From: Asticcacaulis sp. SL142 | GTDB lineage: Bacteria > Pseudomonadota > Alphaproteobacteria > Caulobacterales > Caulobacteraceae | DNA length: 64,000 nucleotides | Reading direction: 5' to 3' | NCBI RefSeq assembly: GCF_026625745.1 | Contig: NZ_CP113061.1 | Location: forward strand, 62,001-126,000 | In this document: piece after piece, positions 42,817-48,696 of the stretch | Position numbering within the stretch: position 1 is the first letter of the stretch | How the letters are laid out: each line of letters starts with the position of its first letter | Notes under the pieces: generated by a model | Told to the model about the DNA's origin: nothing | Databases searched by the model: none | What the model saw: the letters and a program-made list of their open reading frames with translations, nothing else | Position numbers and translations under genes: made by a program

Positions 42817-44493
42817 TTATGCACTCAATTTGTTGTGGGGCCCTTTGTGAACCCTCTCTACAAAAGTCCGAAGATCTCCAAGCTTTTCATCATGCAACGG
42901 AACATCAGACAGTAACTTCATCACAAATTTTGGCCCATGGTTGCCAATTTCCGGGCAAAACATTTCGATTTCACCCACTGGAACCAAATATATTCCAATC
43001 TTTTCAAGTGACTCTATTAACTCGTTGAAATCAGATTGTGCTTTACCTTTTGGCACTCCAGCCTTGCCGAATTTTTTAACTTCATACCATGAAGCACCTT
43101 GTTTCATTGCATCGGTTATTTCGCTTTTGGGTAGATTTTCTTCTTCGGATTTTTCAATTACAGCGATAATTTCTTTTTTGATGTCACTGTTAGATTTTGG
43201 CTTTTTCCCTTTTCTTACAGCTGCATCTAAGCGAGTCCATAGGGGGTTAATTTCATCCCAGTTTCCTCCAAAAGCTTCAACTGTTGTCTTTACTAAAGAA
43301 GATTCAGAAAGAAAATCTAGGTCTAATATTGCTTTAACGGGCACACCAATTTGACGAAGAACTCCGGCAATTTTGGCTACACCATGTTTCCCTCCGGTTG
43401 GGACATAAGCGGTGTCTTGCCACTGTTCCGTGGAGTTGCTGGACAAGTGATCAGCGACAGAATTTATCAATCTACAGTCGCTATCGTCCTCACATATTAT
43501 AGTTTGTTCATGGAATATGCCTTCAAGAGCATTGGAATAACGCAATTCTGGCTTTTCCCATAATTCTTGGATCGTAGCTGCTGGTGCTTCTTGTACAAAA
43601 TTTTTGTCTCCTTCTCTACGGATTCTAAGAATTCGTACGTTTCCTTTTGTGCCTTCAAGAAATCCGCGTAAAATGTCACTGCTATGCGTTGCAACGAGTA
43701 ACTGCCCCTTTACCTCAGCGGCCAATGTTTCGCCTAAGCGGCGCATTTGAGGGGGGTGCAAAAAAGCCTCTGGCTCATCAATTAATGTGATATCTAAGTC
43801 TGTGACGACTGCTTCAAAAAGGATACCGGCATAACTTTTCATACCGTCTCCTTGTTGATCTAACAGAGGGTTTTGGCGAACTAAATCAACGTATTCGTTA
43901 CTCACACGATCTAATATTTGGGAAGCCGGTAGTTCACCAACATGAATAGGGAGCTTATTCCCTCCTCTAAAGTCAAACATAATGTCTTTTCCAAAGGCTT
44001 TGCGAAATAAACCACTCACCTTGGACATCAAATGCTGATCATCATAAAGGACGTGTTGCGGTTTTGATTTTTGCTCGTCTGGAGAAATACTGTTTTGTTG
44101 ATTGCATATTGTTAATCTGTCGTTTGCCGCTATATTTTTAATGTAGCCATATAATAAATCATGTTGTAAATATTTATTAGACCAAAATGCTATTTGTTCA
44201 GAGTTGATTTGCCAGCTTTTAAATCTATATTTTCCGTTATAATAATCTCCATTAGTTTCTAAAAATTGTTTTAGATCTTCCTTTGTTCCAGTTTTGTTGA
44301 TTTCCATGTTTGAAATTACAATTGGTCGGAATTTCTCGCCTTGATGCGCAATCGATATTATCTCTCTTAAGGATTGAGATTTTCCGCTGTTATTTGCACC
44401 AACAAGTATAATTTTCTCGCTTGGAGATAAGTCAAAACTTTGTCCGCTTGAAAAAGTTAATTTTGAGATCGAAGCAGTAGGTTTAGAAGTCAA
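42817..44493 (-). CDS. OLD-like ATPase with TOPRIM nuclease domain
   Basis: 558 residues. The N-terminal ABC-type ATPase has Walker A GANNSGKS at 32-39, signature-like region QQGDGMKSYAGIL, Walker B LDITLIDEPEAFLHPPQ and the H-loop ATHSSD. The C-terminal half has a TOPRIM pattern: ICEDDSD (acidic cluster), PTGGKHGVAK and LDLDFL (DxD). This is the plan of class 1 OLD-family nucleases, many of which act in phage defence. No helicase partner (as in Gabija) or reverse transcriptase is adjacent. The gene is much more AT-rich than its neighbours and so was probably acquired by transfer, next to a HepT/MntA pair. Confidence 0.82.
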   Translation of the reverse strand: MTSKPTASISKLTFSSGQSFDLSPSEKIILVGANNSGKSQSLREIISIAHQGEKFRPIVISNMEINKTGTKEDLKQFLETNGDYYNGKYRFKSWQINSEQIAFWSNKYLQHDLLYGYIKNIAANDRLTICNQQNSISPDEQKSKPQHVLYDDQHLMSKVSGLFRKAFGKDIMFDFRGGNKLPIHVGELPASQILDRVSNEYVDLVRQNPLLDQQGDGMKSYAGILFEAVVTDLDITLIDEPEAFLHPPQMRRLGETLAAEVKGQLLVATHSSDILRGFLEGTKGNVRILRIRREGDKNFVQEAPAATIQELWEKPELRYSNALEGIFHEQTIICEDDSDCRLINSVADHLSSNSTEQWQDTAYVPTGGKHGVAKIAGVLRQIGVPVKAILDLDFLSESSLVKTTVEAFGGNWDEINPLWTRLDAAVRKGKKPKSNSDIKKEIIAVIEKSEEENLPKSEITDAMKQGASWYEVKKFGKAGVPKGKAQSDFNELIESLEKIGIYLVPVGEIEMFCPEIGNHGPKFVMKLLSDVPLHDEKLGDLRTFVERVHKGPHNKLSA

Positions 44494-44874: not shown

Positions 44875-46710
44875 ATGAACTTAAGAAATATCGCGATTAT
44901 CGCTCACGTTGACCACGGCAAGACAACGCTGGTGGATGCGCTGCTGGCACAGTCTGGCGTCTTCCGCGCCAATGAGGCGACGGTTGAGCGCGCCATGGAC
45001 TCTAATGACCAGGAACGCGAACGCGGCATCACCATCCTTGCCAAATGTACCTCTGTTCTGTGGAACGGTAAGGCCGGTGAGACGCGCATCAACATCATCG
45101 ACACGCCGGGCCACGCCGACTTTGGCGGCGAAGTTGAACGTATCCTCGGCATGGTGGACGGCTGTGTGATCCTGGTGGACGCCGAAGAAGGCGTCATGCC
45201 GCAGACCAAGTTCGTGCTGGGTAAGGCGCTGAAACTGGGACTGCGTCCGATCCTGTGCATCAACAAGGTTGACCGCCCGCACGCCGATCCTGACCGCGTG
45301 CATAACGAAGCGTTCGACCTGTTTGCCATCATGGGCGCTACCGAAGAACAACTCGACTTCCCGCACATCTATGCGTCGGGTAAGGCCGGTTGGGCGACGA
45401 TGGATATGAAGGAGCCGTCGGAAACGCTGGCGCCGCTGTTTGACCTGATCGTTGATCACGTCCCGCCGCCTGCCGCGCAATCGCGTGTGGATGAGCCGTT
45501 CCAGATGCTGAGCGTTCTGATCGAATCCGATCCGTTCCTGGGCCGCATCCTGACCGGCCGTATCGCTGCGGGTAAGGCTGTTGCCGGTCTGGCCATCAAG
45601 GCGTTGAACCGTGACGGCGTTGAAATCGAGCGCGGCCGGATCACCAAGGTTCTGGCGTTCCGCGGCCTGAAGCGTCAGCCGATCGACGAAGGCACCGAAG
45701 CCGGTGACATCTGCGCGATTGCCGGTTTGTCCAAGGCGACCGTGGCCGATACGCTGTGCGATATGTCGCTCAATGAGGCGCTGCCCGCACAGCCGATCGA
45801 TCCGCCGACCATCTCGATGACCGTATCCGTCAACGATTCGCCTCTGGCCGGCCGTGAAGGCTCCAAGGTGCAGTCGCGCGTGATCCGTGACCGCCTGCTG
45901 AAAGAAGCCGAATCCAACGTGGCGATCCGCGTGACCGAAACGGCTGAAAAAGACGCCTACGAAGTTGCCGGTCGGGGTGAACTTCAACTGGGCGTTCTGA
46001 TTGAAAACATGCGCCGCGAAGGCTTCGAAGTGGCGATTTCGCGTCCGCGCGTGGTCTATCAGATCAACGAAGAAACCGGCGAGCGCATGGAGCCGATCGA
46101 AGACGTCATGATTGACGTCGATGATGAGTTCTCCGGCATCGTCATTGAAAAGCTGTCGGCCCGTAAGGCTGAGCTTAAGGACATGGGCCCGTCCGGTGGT
46201 GGCAAGACCCGCATCCAGCTCAAGTCGCCGTCGCGCTCGCTGATCGGTTATCAGGGCGAGTTCCTGACCGATACGCGCGGGTCGGGCGTGCTCAACCGCG
46301 TGTTCTCGCACTATGAACCGTATAAGGGCATCATCGACCAGAACCGTAAGGGCGTGCTGGTCTCCAATGGTGACGGCGAAACGGCGGCCTTTGCGCTGTG
46401 GAACCTCGAAGACCGCGGCACCATGTTTGTGGGTGCGGGCGAAAAGACCTATCAGGGCATGATCATCGGCGAAAATGCCCGTTCGGACGATCTCGATGTC
46501 AACCCGATGAAGGCCAAGCAACTCACCAACGTGCGCGCTTCGGGTAAGGATGAAGCCATCCGCCTGACGCCGCCGCGCCGCCCGACGCTGGAGCAGGCGA
46601 TTGCCTATATCGAAGACGATGAACTGGTGGAAGTGACGCCACTCAACATCCGTCTGCGCAAGCGCGAGCTGAACCCTTCGTTCCGCAAGAAGCGCGTGAA
46701 GGCGGACTGA
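44875..46710 (+). CDS. typA: ribosome-associated GTPase TypA/BipA
   Basis: Translation-factor GTPase of 611 residues that helps 50S assembly and growth at low temperature or under stress. G1 AHVDHGKTTL (residues 10-19), G2 in ERERGITI, G3 DTPGHADFGGEV and G4 NKVD are all intact. EF-G-like domains follow (GRGELQLGVLIENMRREGFE), then the C-terminal domain with GSGVLNRVFSHYEPYKG. AAAGG precedes the ATG. Single gene; a strong terminator follows. Confidence 0.97.
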   Translation: MNLRNIAIIAHVDHGKTTLVDALLAQSGVFRANEATVERAMDSNDQERERGITILAKCTSVLWNGKAGETRINIIDTPGHADFGGEVERILGMVDGCVILVDAEEGVMPQTKFVLGKALKLGLRPILCINKVDRPHADPDRVHNEAFDLFAIMGATEEQLDFPHIYASGKAGWATMDMKEPSETLAPLFDLIVDHVPPPAAQSRVDEPFQMLSVLIESDPFLGRILTGRIAAGKAVAGLAIKALNRDGVEIERGRITKVLAFRGLKRQPIDEGTEAGDICAIAGLSKATVADTLCDMSLNEALPAQPIDPPTISMTVSVNDSPLAGREGSKVQSRVIRDRLLKEAESNVAIRVTETAEKDAYEVAGRGELQLGVLIENMRREGFEVAISRPRVVYQINEETGERMEPIEDVMIDVDDEFSGIVIEKLSARKAELKDMGPSGGGKTRIQLKSPSRSLIGYQGEFLTDTRGSGVLNRVFSHYEPYKGIIDQNRKGVLVSNGDGETAAFALWNLEDRGTMFVGAGEKTYQGMIIGENARSDDLDVNPMKAKQLTNVRASGKDEAIRLTPPRRPTLEQAIAYIEDDELVEVTPLNIRLRKRELNPSFRKKRVKAD

Positions 46711-46760
46711 TTGTAGTCATGGGGGAACACGTTCCCCCATGTGCCCCCTTTACTGGTTAT

Positions 46761-46864: not shown

Positions 46865-47674
46865 TTATATACGATCCTTGGCCTCTAGGTAGTCTGCGTC
46901 TCGACCGTCTTCCTGTAACTCTTCCTCGGCTTGGAGCGCTAAGAGGGTCTTTAGCGCGGCAACCTTCTTCTCCAGAAGGCTTAATCCCCTGATATCAAAT
47001 ATGCCACTGATCTGAACTTTATCTCCACGGATATCCATATTCACCTTGTTTAAATCTTGCACTCCATTGGCATGCGCTGAAACTGGGTAAGACAATATAG
47101 GACTTGCTAGTAATGGCATTGGAGTAAGGGAAGGGGGCTGTTGCATTTGAACCTCCTTTGACTGCTCGGTGGATTCTAAAGACGAGCTATCAGGATGGCT
47201 ATAACTTTCGTTTTCTTTTAAATTCTCCACTTCACGGTAGGTCTCCATAAACGCACTGATCGCGGGCCCTACTGCTGTATCGGAGAACTCTTGTTTTATT
47301 AGATAGGACTTGATTGGCCCTTCGGATGGTATGCCGTCAGGAAATCGCTCATGTATGTCTCGAAATAATTGTGGTGTGAAGGCTGCTTTAATCAACGCCT
47401 CATTGCGTTCTCGCTCATTCTCAGCATGTAGAATCTCCACAGCAGTTTGAGTTACTCGAACATCGCCCGTTCCAACGCGAGAAAGTAACCCAAATTGTAT
47501 CAAGGCTGCGATTACAGTCATTGAGCGACCGGTTAAACCGCTATACCCCAGCGCATGGGCAGCGTCTTCGCGCGTGATAACATTTGTTCGGTTTAATCTG
47601 TGAATTTTCGCAACCATATCAACGGATTGTGTCAATGATAGGCTCGGGTAGTTTGGGCTGCGCATTCTGGCCAT
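46865..47674 (-). CDS. hypothetical protein in low-GC islet
   Basis: 269 residues from the ATG at 47674, which has CGGAG seven bases upstream; an earlier GTG adds a basic stretch. Residues 5-75 look like a winged-helix module (LTQSVDMVAKIHRLNRTNVITREDAAHALGYSGLTGRSMTVIAALIQFGLLSRVG). A helical middle (AFTPQLFRDIHERFPDGIPSEGPIKSYLI), a Ser/Gln/Pro-rich linker and a last helix (LEKKVAALKTLLALQAEEE) follow. I do not recognise the family. Base composition is clearly lower in GC than typA or the following operon, so transfer is likely. It may be a DNA-binding regulator (inference). Confidence 0.65.
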   Translation of the reverse strand: MARMRSPNYPSLSLTQSVDMVAKIHRLNRTNVITREDAAHALGYSGLTGRSMTVIAALIQFGLLSRVGTGDVRVTQTAVEILHAENERERNEALIKAAFTPQLFRDIHERFPDGIPSEGPIKSYLIKQEFSDTAVGPAISAFMETYREVENLKENESYSHPDSSSLESTEQSKEVQMQQPPSLTPMPLLASPILSYPVSAHANGVQDLNKVNMDIRGDKVQISGIFDIRGLSLLEKKVAALKTLLALQAEEELQEDGRDADYLEAKDRI

Positions 47675-47771
47675 GGAGCGTCTCCGTTTGCATTTCCGTT
47701 TATATACCACAAATAAACTACGCTATCCATACTTTCTTCCATAAATGGAATGGAAATCGCTTCCGGCTTCT

Positions 47772-47799
47772 TGACGTTATGTGGCAATGTGTTATTAAG
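47772..47799 (+). promoter_or_regulatory. candidate promoter of the orphan unit
   Basis: TTGACG and TATTAA separated by 16 bp, directly in front of a strong hairpin series that ends in a terminator at 48190. Confidence 0.45.
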
Positions 47800-47988
47800 G
47801 ATTTGCTTCGGCCCAAAAACCATTTGAGCCGCACGGCCCCTGGCAGGGGGCACGGCGGCTCAAGCGTTATAGTGATTTTTGGTCTTCCGGGGGACGCTCT
47901 AACCTGTCCTTTAACCCCGGGCTCCGCTTTTGACACTAACATGTCGAATCGGATGATGCAAGGACGCCTCGAAAGATGGAGGTGCTCC

Positions 47989-48084
47989 ATGATAAGCAAA
48001 GCTTGTCATTGGGTCTCCGCATACGTCCGGTTGCGCTTCGGCAAAATCGAACACGTCTGCGGACACTGGCGCTGCTGCGGTTAG
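47989..48084 (+). CDS. possible 31-aa small protein
   Basis: An ORF of 31 residues with TGGAGG seven bases before the ATG. The product is basic and rich in Cys, His and Trp (MISKACHWVSAYVRLRFGK, then IEHVCGHWRCCG). The C-x(9)-HW...C-x(5)-CC spacing could bind a metal. It lies in the middle of the candidate orphan transcript. No family recognised; coding status is unproven. Confidence 0.4.
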   Translation: MISKACHWVSAYVRLRFGKIEHVCGHWRCCG

Positions 48085-48156
48085 TCCCGCACAGCCCTAG
48101 GGTTTAGCTGTTGAGCGTGATGCACTAGGCGAACCCTACCAACCTTAATAGCCTTG

Positions 48157-48190
48157 GCCGTCGCAGGGAACTATCCTGCGGCGGCTTTTT
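48157..48190 (+). terminator. strong terminator of the orphan unit
   Basis: GCCGTCGCAGG/CCTGCGGCGGC stem with one G-U pair, 7-nt loop, then TTTTT. Confidence 0.85.
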
Positions 48191-48273
48191 AATTTTAGTG
48201 CATTCACCTTTCTCGGTAATTAATAGAATTTTTTGCACCGTGAGTCTTAGCTTTATATTCCGCTCATCTAAGG

Positions 48274-48696
48274 TCACCGCAACAAAACCGTTTCCAACTT
48301 GTCGAAAAAGGCCTGCCAGCCGAAGCGGGCGCCGCCGGAGGCTTGTGTCTGATCGGGCCGGAAGCCGGTCTGTTCCATGCGCAGATGCGTACCGCCTGAC
48401 GTGGGGGTGAGGGTAAAGGTCACCACGCTGCGCAGGTCATAGGCCGGGTTCTCATGCACATGGTTCCAGGTGTAGGACAAGGTCGTGTGTGGCTCGACCG
48501 CCAGCACTTCGCAGTCCAGAACGCCGCCCCACTCGCCGCGCAGATTAAACTTATGCCCTGCGACCGGCGCAAAGTCATTTTTCATCAGCCAGTCCTCGAT
48601 CAGATGCGGCTGGGTCAGGGCGCGCCACAGCTTTTCCGGCGGGTGCGCAAATTCGCGTTCAATAATAACGGTCTCGGCCTTATGGTCGGTGGTCAT
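48274..48696 (-). CDS. SRPBCC (AHSA1-type) domain protein
   Basis: 140 residues of the START/Bet v1-like hydrophobic-pocket fold: FAHPPEKLWRALTQPHLIEDWLM at the start, GEWGGVLDCEVLAVEPHTTLSYTW in the middle and the C-terminal GGARFGWQAFFDKLE helix. AHSA1-type proteins of this sort are very often paired with an ArsR regulator, as here. The three genes 49244-48274 form one operon. The ligand is unknown. Confidence 0.88.
   Translation of the reverse strand: MTTDHKAETVIIEREFAHPPEKLWRALTQPHLIEDWLMKNDFAPVAGHKFNLRGEWGGVLDCEVLAVEPHTTLSYTWNHVHENPAYDLRSVVTFTLTPTSGGTHLRMEQTGFRPDQTQASGGARFGWQAFFDKLETVLLR

Follow-up and report, generated by a model that had tools for sequence, protein, structure and literature searches.

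A folded RNA with a tiny basic protein gene and a divergent winged-helix gene form an undescribed, probably mobile two-part module in Asticcacaulis

Introduction

A short, heavily structured unit in Asticcacaulis sp. SL142, located in the interval from typA (44875-46710) to an AHSA1-type gene (48274-48696), encodes a protein of only 31 codons and is divergent from a gene of no recognised family. This raises the question whether the unit stands alone or forms one system with the divergent gene and, if so, what kind of system the two would make. We therefore compared the unit, its predicted fold, its tiny ORF and the divergent gene, hereafter the partner gene, with related loci in other genomes. 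The window denotes the whole stretch of DNA that was analysed, 64,000 nucleotides in length, and all coordinates are positions within it unless a locus is named.

Results

All elements of the promoter-to-terminator unit described in the sequence-only reading are present and lie within one base of the positions given there (TTGACG starts at 47771). The features of the locus are as follows.

46865-47674, minus strand: partner gene for a 269-residue predicted tandem winged-helix protein (from the ORF, its homologues and an AlphaFold model)
47675-47770, no strand: shared intergenic region, a presumed operator (from its position and the repeats of relatives)
47771-47798, plus strand: putative promoter TTGACG-N16-TATTAA, read from the sequence (TTGACG 47771-47776, TATTAA 47793-47798, spacer 16 nt)
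47806-48192, plus strand: predicted transcript of ~385 nt with an inferred start (from fold z and the architecture common to seven loci)
47824-47863, plus strand: hairpin with 9-bp arms, arm TTGAGCCGC at 47824-47832 and its complement at 47855-47863, counterpart of hairpin B of relatives
47887-47920, plus strand: second leader hairpin CCGGGG/CCCCGG, from the fold; relatives have positional counterparts only
47966-47988, plus strand: Shine-Dalgarno sequence (GGAGG, 47978-47982), paired with GCCTC or CTCC in a local hairpin
47989-48084, plus strand: 31-codon ORF, a PHROG 21154 member (ATG 47989, TAG 48082-48084, product MISKACHWVSAYVRLRFGKIEHVCGHWRCCG)
48156-48195, plus strand: intrinsic terminator, stem 48156-48186 followed by TTTTTAATTTT; six of seven loci have a terminator here
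48130-48330, minus strand: remnant of a convergent 60-75-residue protein gene over the terminator (relatives: L002 1381-1608; L049 4133-4290)

A simple promoter scan did not return the window promoter because TATTAA lacks the final T that the scan demands. Support for this putative promoter is comparative: of 27 related loci that carry the partner gene, 20 have TTGAC at a conserved distance of 84-124 nt ahead of the winged-helix start. Significant operator repeats are present in several relatives; none was found in the intergenic region of the window.

The impression of heavy RNA structure was borne out, with z values of about -5 to -6 against shuffles: region 47800-48192 folds at -172.8 kcal/mol compared with -138.2 +/- 6.7 kcal/mol for dinucleotide shuffles (z -5.2, 0/100), and the predicted transcript (381 nt) gave a z of -6.0. 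In the predicted leader, the long hairpin is followed by a second one, and small stems enclose the Shine-Dalgarno sequence and the start codon; further stems are found within the ORF and 3' of it, ahead of the terminator. Opening the start site in the window would cost 15.4 kcal/mol (z 3.0 against its own shuffles). As a group, the start regions of the seven loci that carry the ORF are costlier to open than those of 20 window genes with a Shine-Dalgarno sequence (Mann-Whitney p 0.0026); tested against its own shuffles, hiding of the start site is clear only in the window and in L073 (z 2.4) and is not significant in the other five. Folding of upstream regions in sliding windows gave results too noisy to serve as sole evidence.

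The 31-codon ORF matches PHROG 21154, a phage protein family of no assigned function, in a profile search (E 2.2e-6). Profile searches showed that seven loci have such an ORF in divergent orientation to the partner gene, namely the window, A. benevestitus (L065/L077; genome G016), an uncultured Asticcacaulis (L066/L073; genome G014), Pseudaquidulcibacter (L074), Methylocella (L068), Oceanicaulis (L082) and an IMG/VR contig (L086), and all seven ORFs match PHROG 21154 (best 1.8e-11). These loci, counted as independent, are modest in number, and several are related to each other. In A. benevestitus, where the DNA upstream of the partner homologue matches that of the window at 83%, the other strand reads MAYKACHIVRAYTRIRFGKLEFVCQHPRCCGSRNP at the corresponding place. 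The pN/pS ratio among four of the seven ORFs is 0.31-0.51, with synonymous sites nearly saturated, and on these sequence comparisons we conclude that the 31-codon ORF is a gene under protein-level selection. The products are basic in all seven loci (pI 9.2-12.0, net charge +2.7 to +13.7, GRAVY 0.11 to -1.25). The tiny protein of the window is predicted to fold into four short strands (pLDDT 90), with no significant structural match.

The linked ORFs share with PHROG 21154 the core V-x-x-Y-x-R-x-R...E-x-V-x-x-H-x-R; unlike the phage members, they are shorter, often rich in Cys and preceded by a folded leader, and they diverge from a winged-helix gene. The phage members sit between the cI and N genes of lambdoid phages (for example Salmonella phage Oslo, L050 3983-4108). 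Of 5426 complete E. coli genomes, 232 carry PHROG 21154 member DNA in their chromosomes, where it is unannotated in nearly all of the rows listed. A second, distant PHROG 21154-like ORF, MERRVNVRSYYRSRYGRIECVIKHTRRWPR, is carried by the source genome (L055 7054-7179; C1:2788095) without a winged-helix neighbour. A Methylocystis rosea plasmid (L049 4040-4175) has a truncated version of the tiny ORF, FGRLEHVCAHSRCCG, which seems to be fused 3' of another small gene and precedes the same terminator. A literature search returned nothing on phrog_21154 or on the pairing of a winged-helix gene with a tiny ORF.

The architecture is shared across the seven loci. The distance from TTGAC to the partner start is 87-110 nt in five of them and 191 nt in Oceanicaulis, and no TTGAC was found at the Pseudaquidulcibacter locus; the ORF, of 26-40 codons, starts 169-302 nt after TTGAC; a terminator was detected 17-73 nt 3' of the stop in six of the seven, giving six transcripts of 304-436 nt; and the fold z ranges from -3.1 to -6.9. 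The unit had been called an orphan, a description that this comparison overturns, and the check for co-occurrence with homologues of 46865-47674 yielded the same seven loci with both ORF and partner, as expected of the one system that had been suspected.

Some candidate evidence was set aside. An 89% fragment in G014 (L003) is a chance match inside an exonuclease III-like ORF, the true homologue of that genome lying elsewhere (L066), and whole-unit DNA searches otherwise returned only the terminator or chance fragments. Conservation of the terminator was dropped as RNA evidence because the same DNA in relatives is the end of the convergent 60-75-residue protein, which is found in A. benevestitus and on M. 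rosea plasmid pGW6_1 with the pattern MTE..EPPL.L..SF.EA..RF......SK.KKPPQD..PRRP and is only a remnant in the window.

In other genomes, the leader found upstream of partner homologues contains two hairpins, named A and B. A three-sequence covariance model with a hand-written structure recovered five held-out loci at the same place, including that of A. benevestitus; held-out matches of model R3 were L021 (5e-11), L067 (2e-5), L066 (1e-3), L068 (4e-3) and L019 (8e-3). In an eight-sequence alignment, 14 of 25 pairs show changes on both sides, and covariation is 0.356 compared with 0.159 +/- 0.023 in shuffled and at most 0.099 in slid alignments, although the alignment leans toward the structure because it was fitted to the model. 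Across 398 genomes, searched with stricter filters that can lose weak matches, the model gave five matches at E <= 4e-10, each just upstream of the partner gene, and R3 genome matches at E 1e-5 to 0.1 were counted as noise. The earlier view that no known RNA family fits stands, since the unit and 20 related loci had no match in Rfam (release 15, gathering score) except a tRNA. The covariance search proposed along with it revealed a covarying family beside the partner gene in relatives, but the model did not recover the window copy. The hairpin at 47824-47863 agrees in place and form with hairpin B, and the window copy is a derived form with only the second, B-like hairpin; A. benevestitus bridges both forms.

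What lies 3' of the RNA varies (cargo genes were assigned partly by eye). Some copies carry PHROG 21154 members; Henriciella, Hyphomonas and L021 carry an 88-residue protein; and small helix-turn-helix-like proteins, on weak Pfam hints, occupy this place in L070, L078, L017 and L019. At L009, L018, L069 and L075, the RNA and the partner are present, with a terminator but no small ORF before it.

Many relatives have a short leader ORF with a Shine-Dalgarno sequence directly before hairpin A. In 9 of 25 (L009, L014, L015, L018, L067, L069, L075, L079 and L081), this ORF, of the form M..RRV and upstream of the partner gene, begins with tandem AGR-AGR arginine codons, which makes leader-peptide control possible there. 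Both the leader ORF and hairpin A are absent from the window, A. benevestitus and G014 copies. In L071 and L072, the region just before the 88-residue gene can form either a stable hairpin or a terminator-like one, but not both; the latter overlaps the Shine-Dalgarno sequence and has a T run after it, an attenuator-like arrangement that fits gated expression.

The AlphaFold model of the partner contains two winged-helix units, predicted with high confidence, and a long C-terminal helix. The FokI recognition region aligns to residues 8-151 (143 residues, Z 8.2), and many MarR-type domains align to residues 8-90 (Z ~7); either match may reflect a common arrangement only. Against Pfam and NCBIfam the partner gave nothing above cut-off (best DUF6400, 15.2 bits compared with a cut-off of 27.1), and neither it nor the tiny protein was matched by PADLOC, by sequence searches of solved structures or by Foldseek at E <= 0.001. 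The statement that no protein family fits hence survives as far as Pfam and NCBIfam go but not for the ORF, which fits PHROG 21154. Partner homologues, conserved over the first 150 residues and variable in the C-terminal part, were found in 18 of 398 genomes of the order (one genome per species), in 3 of 25 genus members, and in Methylocella, Microvirga, Methyloligella, Beijerinckiaceae, Parvularcula, Henriciella, Hyphomonas and others. The A. benevestitus homologue stands behind a large relaxase-like ORF, and one homologue is on a viral-collection contig.

In genomes whose TypA is near-identical, the match to the window stops at 46752 and resumes only at ~49317, with other DNA of ~4 kb between. 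Because these relatives lack the block, it is variable within the genus. The pair recurs in one layout at unrelated sites of several bacteria, and therefore the winged-helix gene and the folded-RNA/tiny-protein unit are a real, previously undescribed two-part module, which is probably mobile. Several members of the tiny-protein family have IS1595-type transposase genes nearby (L061 7920-8858, L062 7942-8895 and L049 4292-5209). Separately, a candidate defence gene, encoding an OLD-like AAA ATPase with a TOPRIM domain and matched by Old/GajA-type models of PADLOC, is located upstream of typA (42817-44493, minus strand).

Discussion

We give an even chance to the reading that the locus is a small, probably mobile two-part module in which a winged-helix regulator accompanies an RNA-gated tiny basic protein, the small gene being swappable. 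The winged-helix protein would bind the shared intergenic region and control both its own gene and the divergent unit. According to the predicted fold, the leader would hide the Shine-Dalgarno sequence and start codon, and the 31-residue protein would be made only after opening or processing of this leader. The constant core would be formed by the RNA together with the winged-helix gene, with the downstream small gene as its swappable cargo, a PHROG 21154 member in the window copy. The charge and predicted fold of the tiny protein suggest an effector, most likely a nucleic-acid- or protein-binding modulator. Of the earlier guess, the half that proposed a regulator plus a small effector is the better one. 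Because their RNA ends at the terminator without a small ORF, several relatives are left uncovered by this combination of gate and cargo.

Those copies favour the idea of the RNA as the actual product, namely a small RNA working with or bound by the winged-helix protein, to which the tiny ORF was added in some copies to give a dual-function RNA. The concentration of the strongest sequence and pair conservation in the hairpins and the tie of the model matches to the partner gene point the same way; however, the ORF is conserved as a protein in the window and six other loci, and the window leader was not recovered by the model, and we regard this idea as unlikely. Transcription attenuation with a leader peptide, the partner being merely a neighbour in a gene-dense mobile island, would account for the leader ORFs with their AGR-AGR codons and for the alternative hairpins of L071 and L072, features that some relatives share with attenuator leader RNAs. 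Yet the window copy lacks the leader ORF and the first hairpin, as do those of A. benevestitus and G014, the downstream genes are not biosynthetic, and a mere neighbour would leave unexplained that the RNA occurs only beside the partner gene; we consider this account quite improbable.

The other half of the earlier guess, an RNA-based toxin-antitoxin pair in which the tiny protein is a toxin restrained by RNA structure and by the winged-helix protein, is not supported, and we judge it very unlikely. Like type I toxin mRNAs of the Hok, Ldr and TisB kind, many of which hide their ribosome-binding site (PMC4147584), the unit has a tiny ORF in a long folded transcript with a hidden ribosome-binding site; in addition, such a pair would agree with two small linked genes at variable sites and with the places of some PHROG 21154 members, which lie in the immunity regions of lambdoid phages and, on a plasmid, next to HigB/VapC genes. 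However, no antisense RNA candidate was found in the window (outside the unit, complementarity to it did not exceed chance, and the unit itself has no good antisense promoter), PADLOC has no match, copies with the RNA only exist, and the partner is a dedicated DNA-binding-type protein. None of the seven tiny proteins is a small hydrophobic toxin of the membrane type, and the unit is not filed under type I because no antisense candidate was found and its basic protein is not hydrophobic. Nor does it resemble type III, in which an RNA antitoxin and an RNase toxin gene share one operon: no tandem-repeat RNA was found in the unit, and the partner is divergent, a predicted winged-helix protein and without a PADLOC match.

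The regulator-plus-effector module preferred here resembles divergent pairs of a MarR-type regulator and its target in its predicted winged-helix fold and shared intergenic promoter region. It differs from them in its tandem winged helices with exchangeable C-terminal parts, which match no family, and in having as its target a conserved folded RNA whose tiny genes can be swapped. More tentatively, and with less than even confidence, we propose that such loci constitute a new class of mobile regulatory cassette in which a dedicated tandem winged-helix protein and its own structured leader RNA family have different tiny genes plugged in, the PHROG 21154 cargo being also used by lambdoid phages in immunity regions. 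The class would extend across Alphaproteobacteria and, with single loci, to Desulfarculaceae and Lysobacterales metagenome bins.

The module brings together a covarying RNA family absent from Rfam, a DNA-binding-type protein family that has no name and one of the smallest protein families conserved in bacteria. Because PHROG 21154 members occur in so many E. coli genomes, a function found for the family in one setting would inform many others. Overall, the module may show a regulator that carries its own RNA gate and swaps the gene that it controls.
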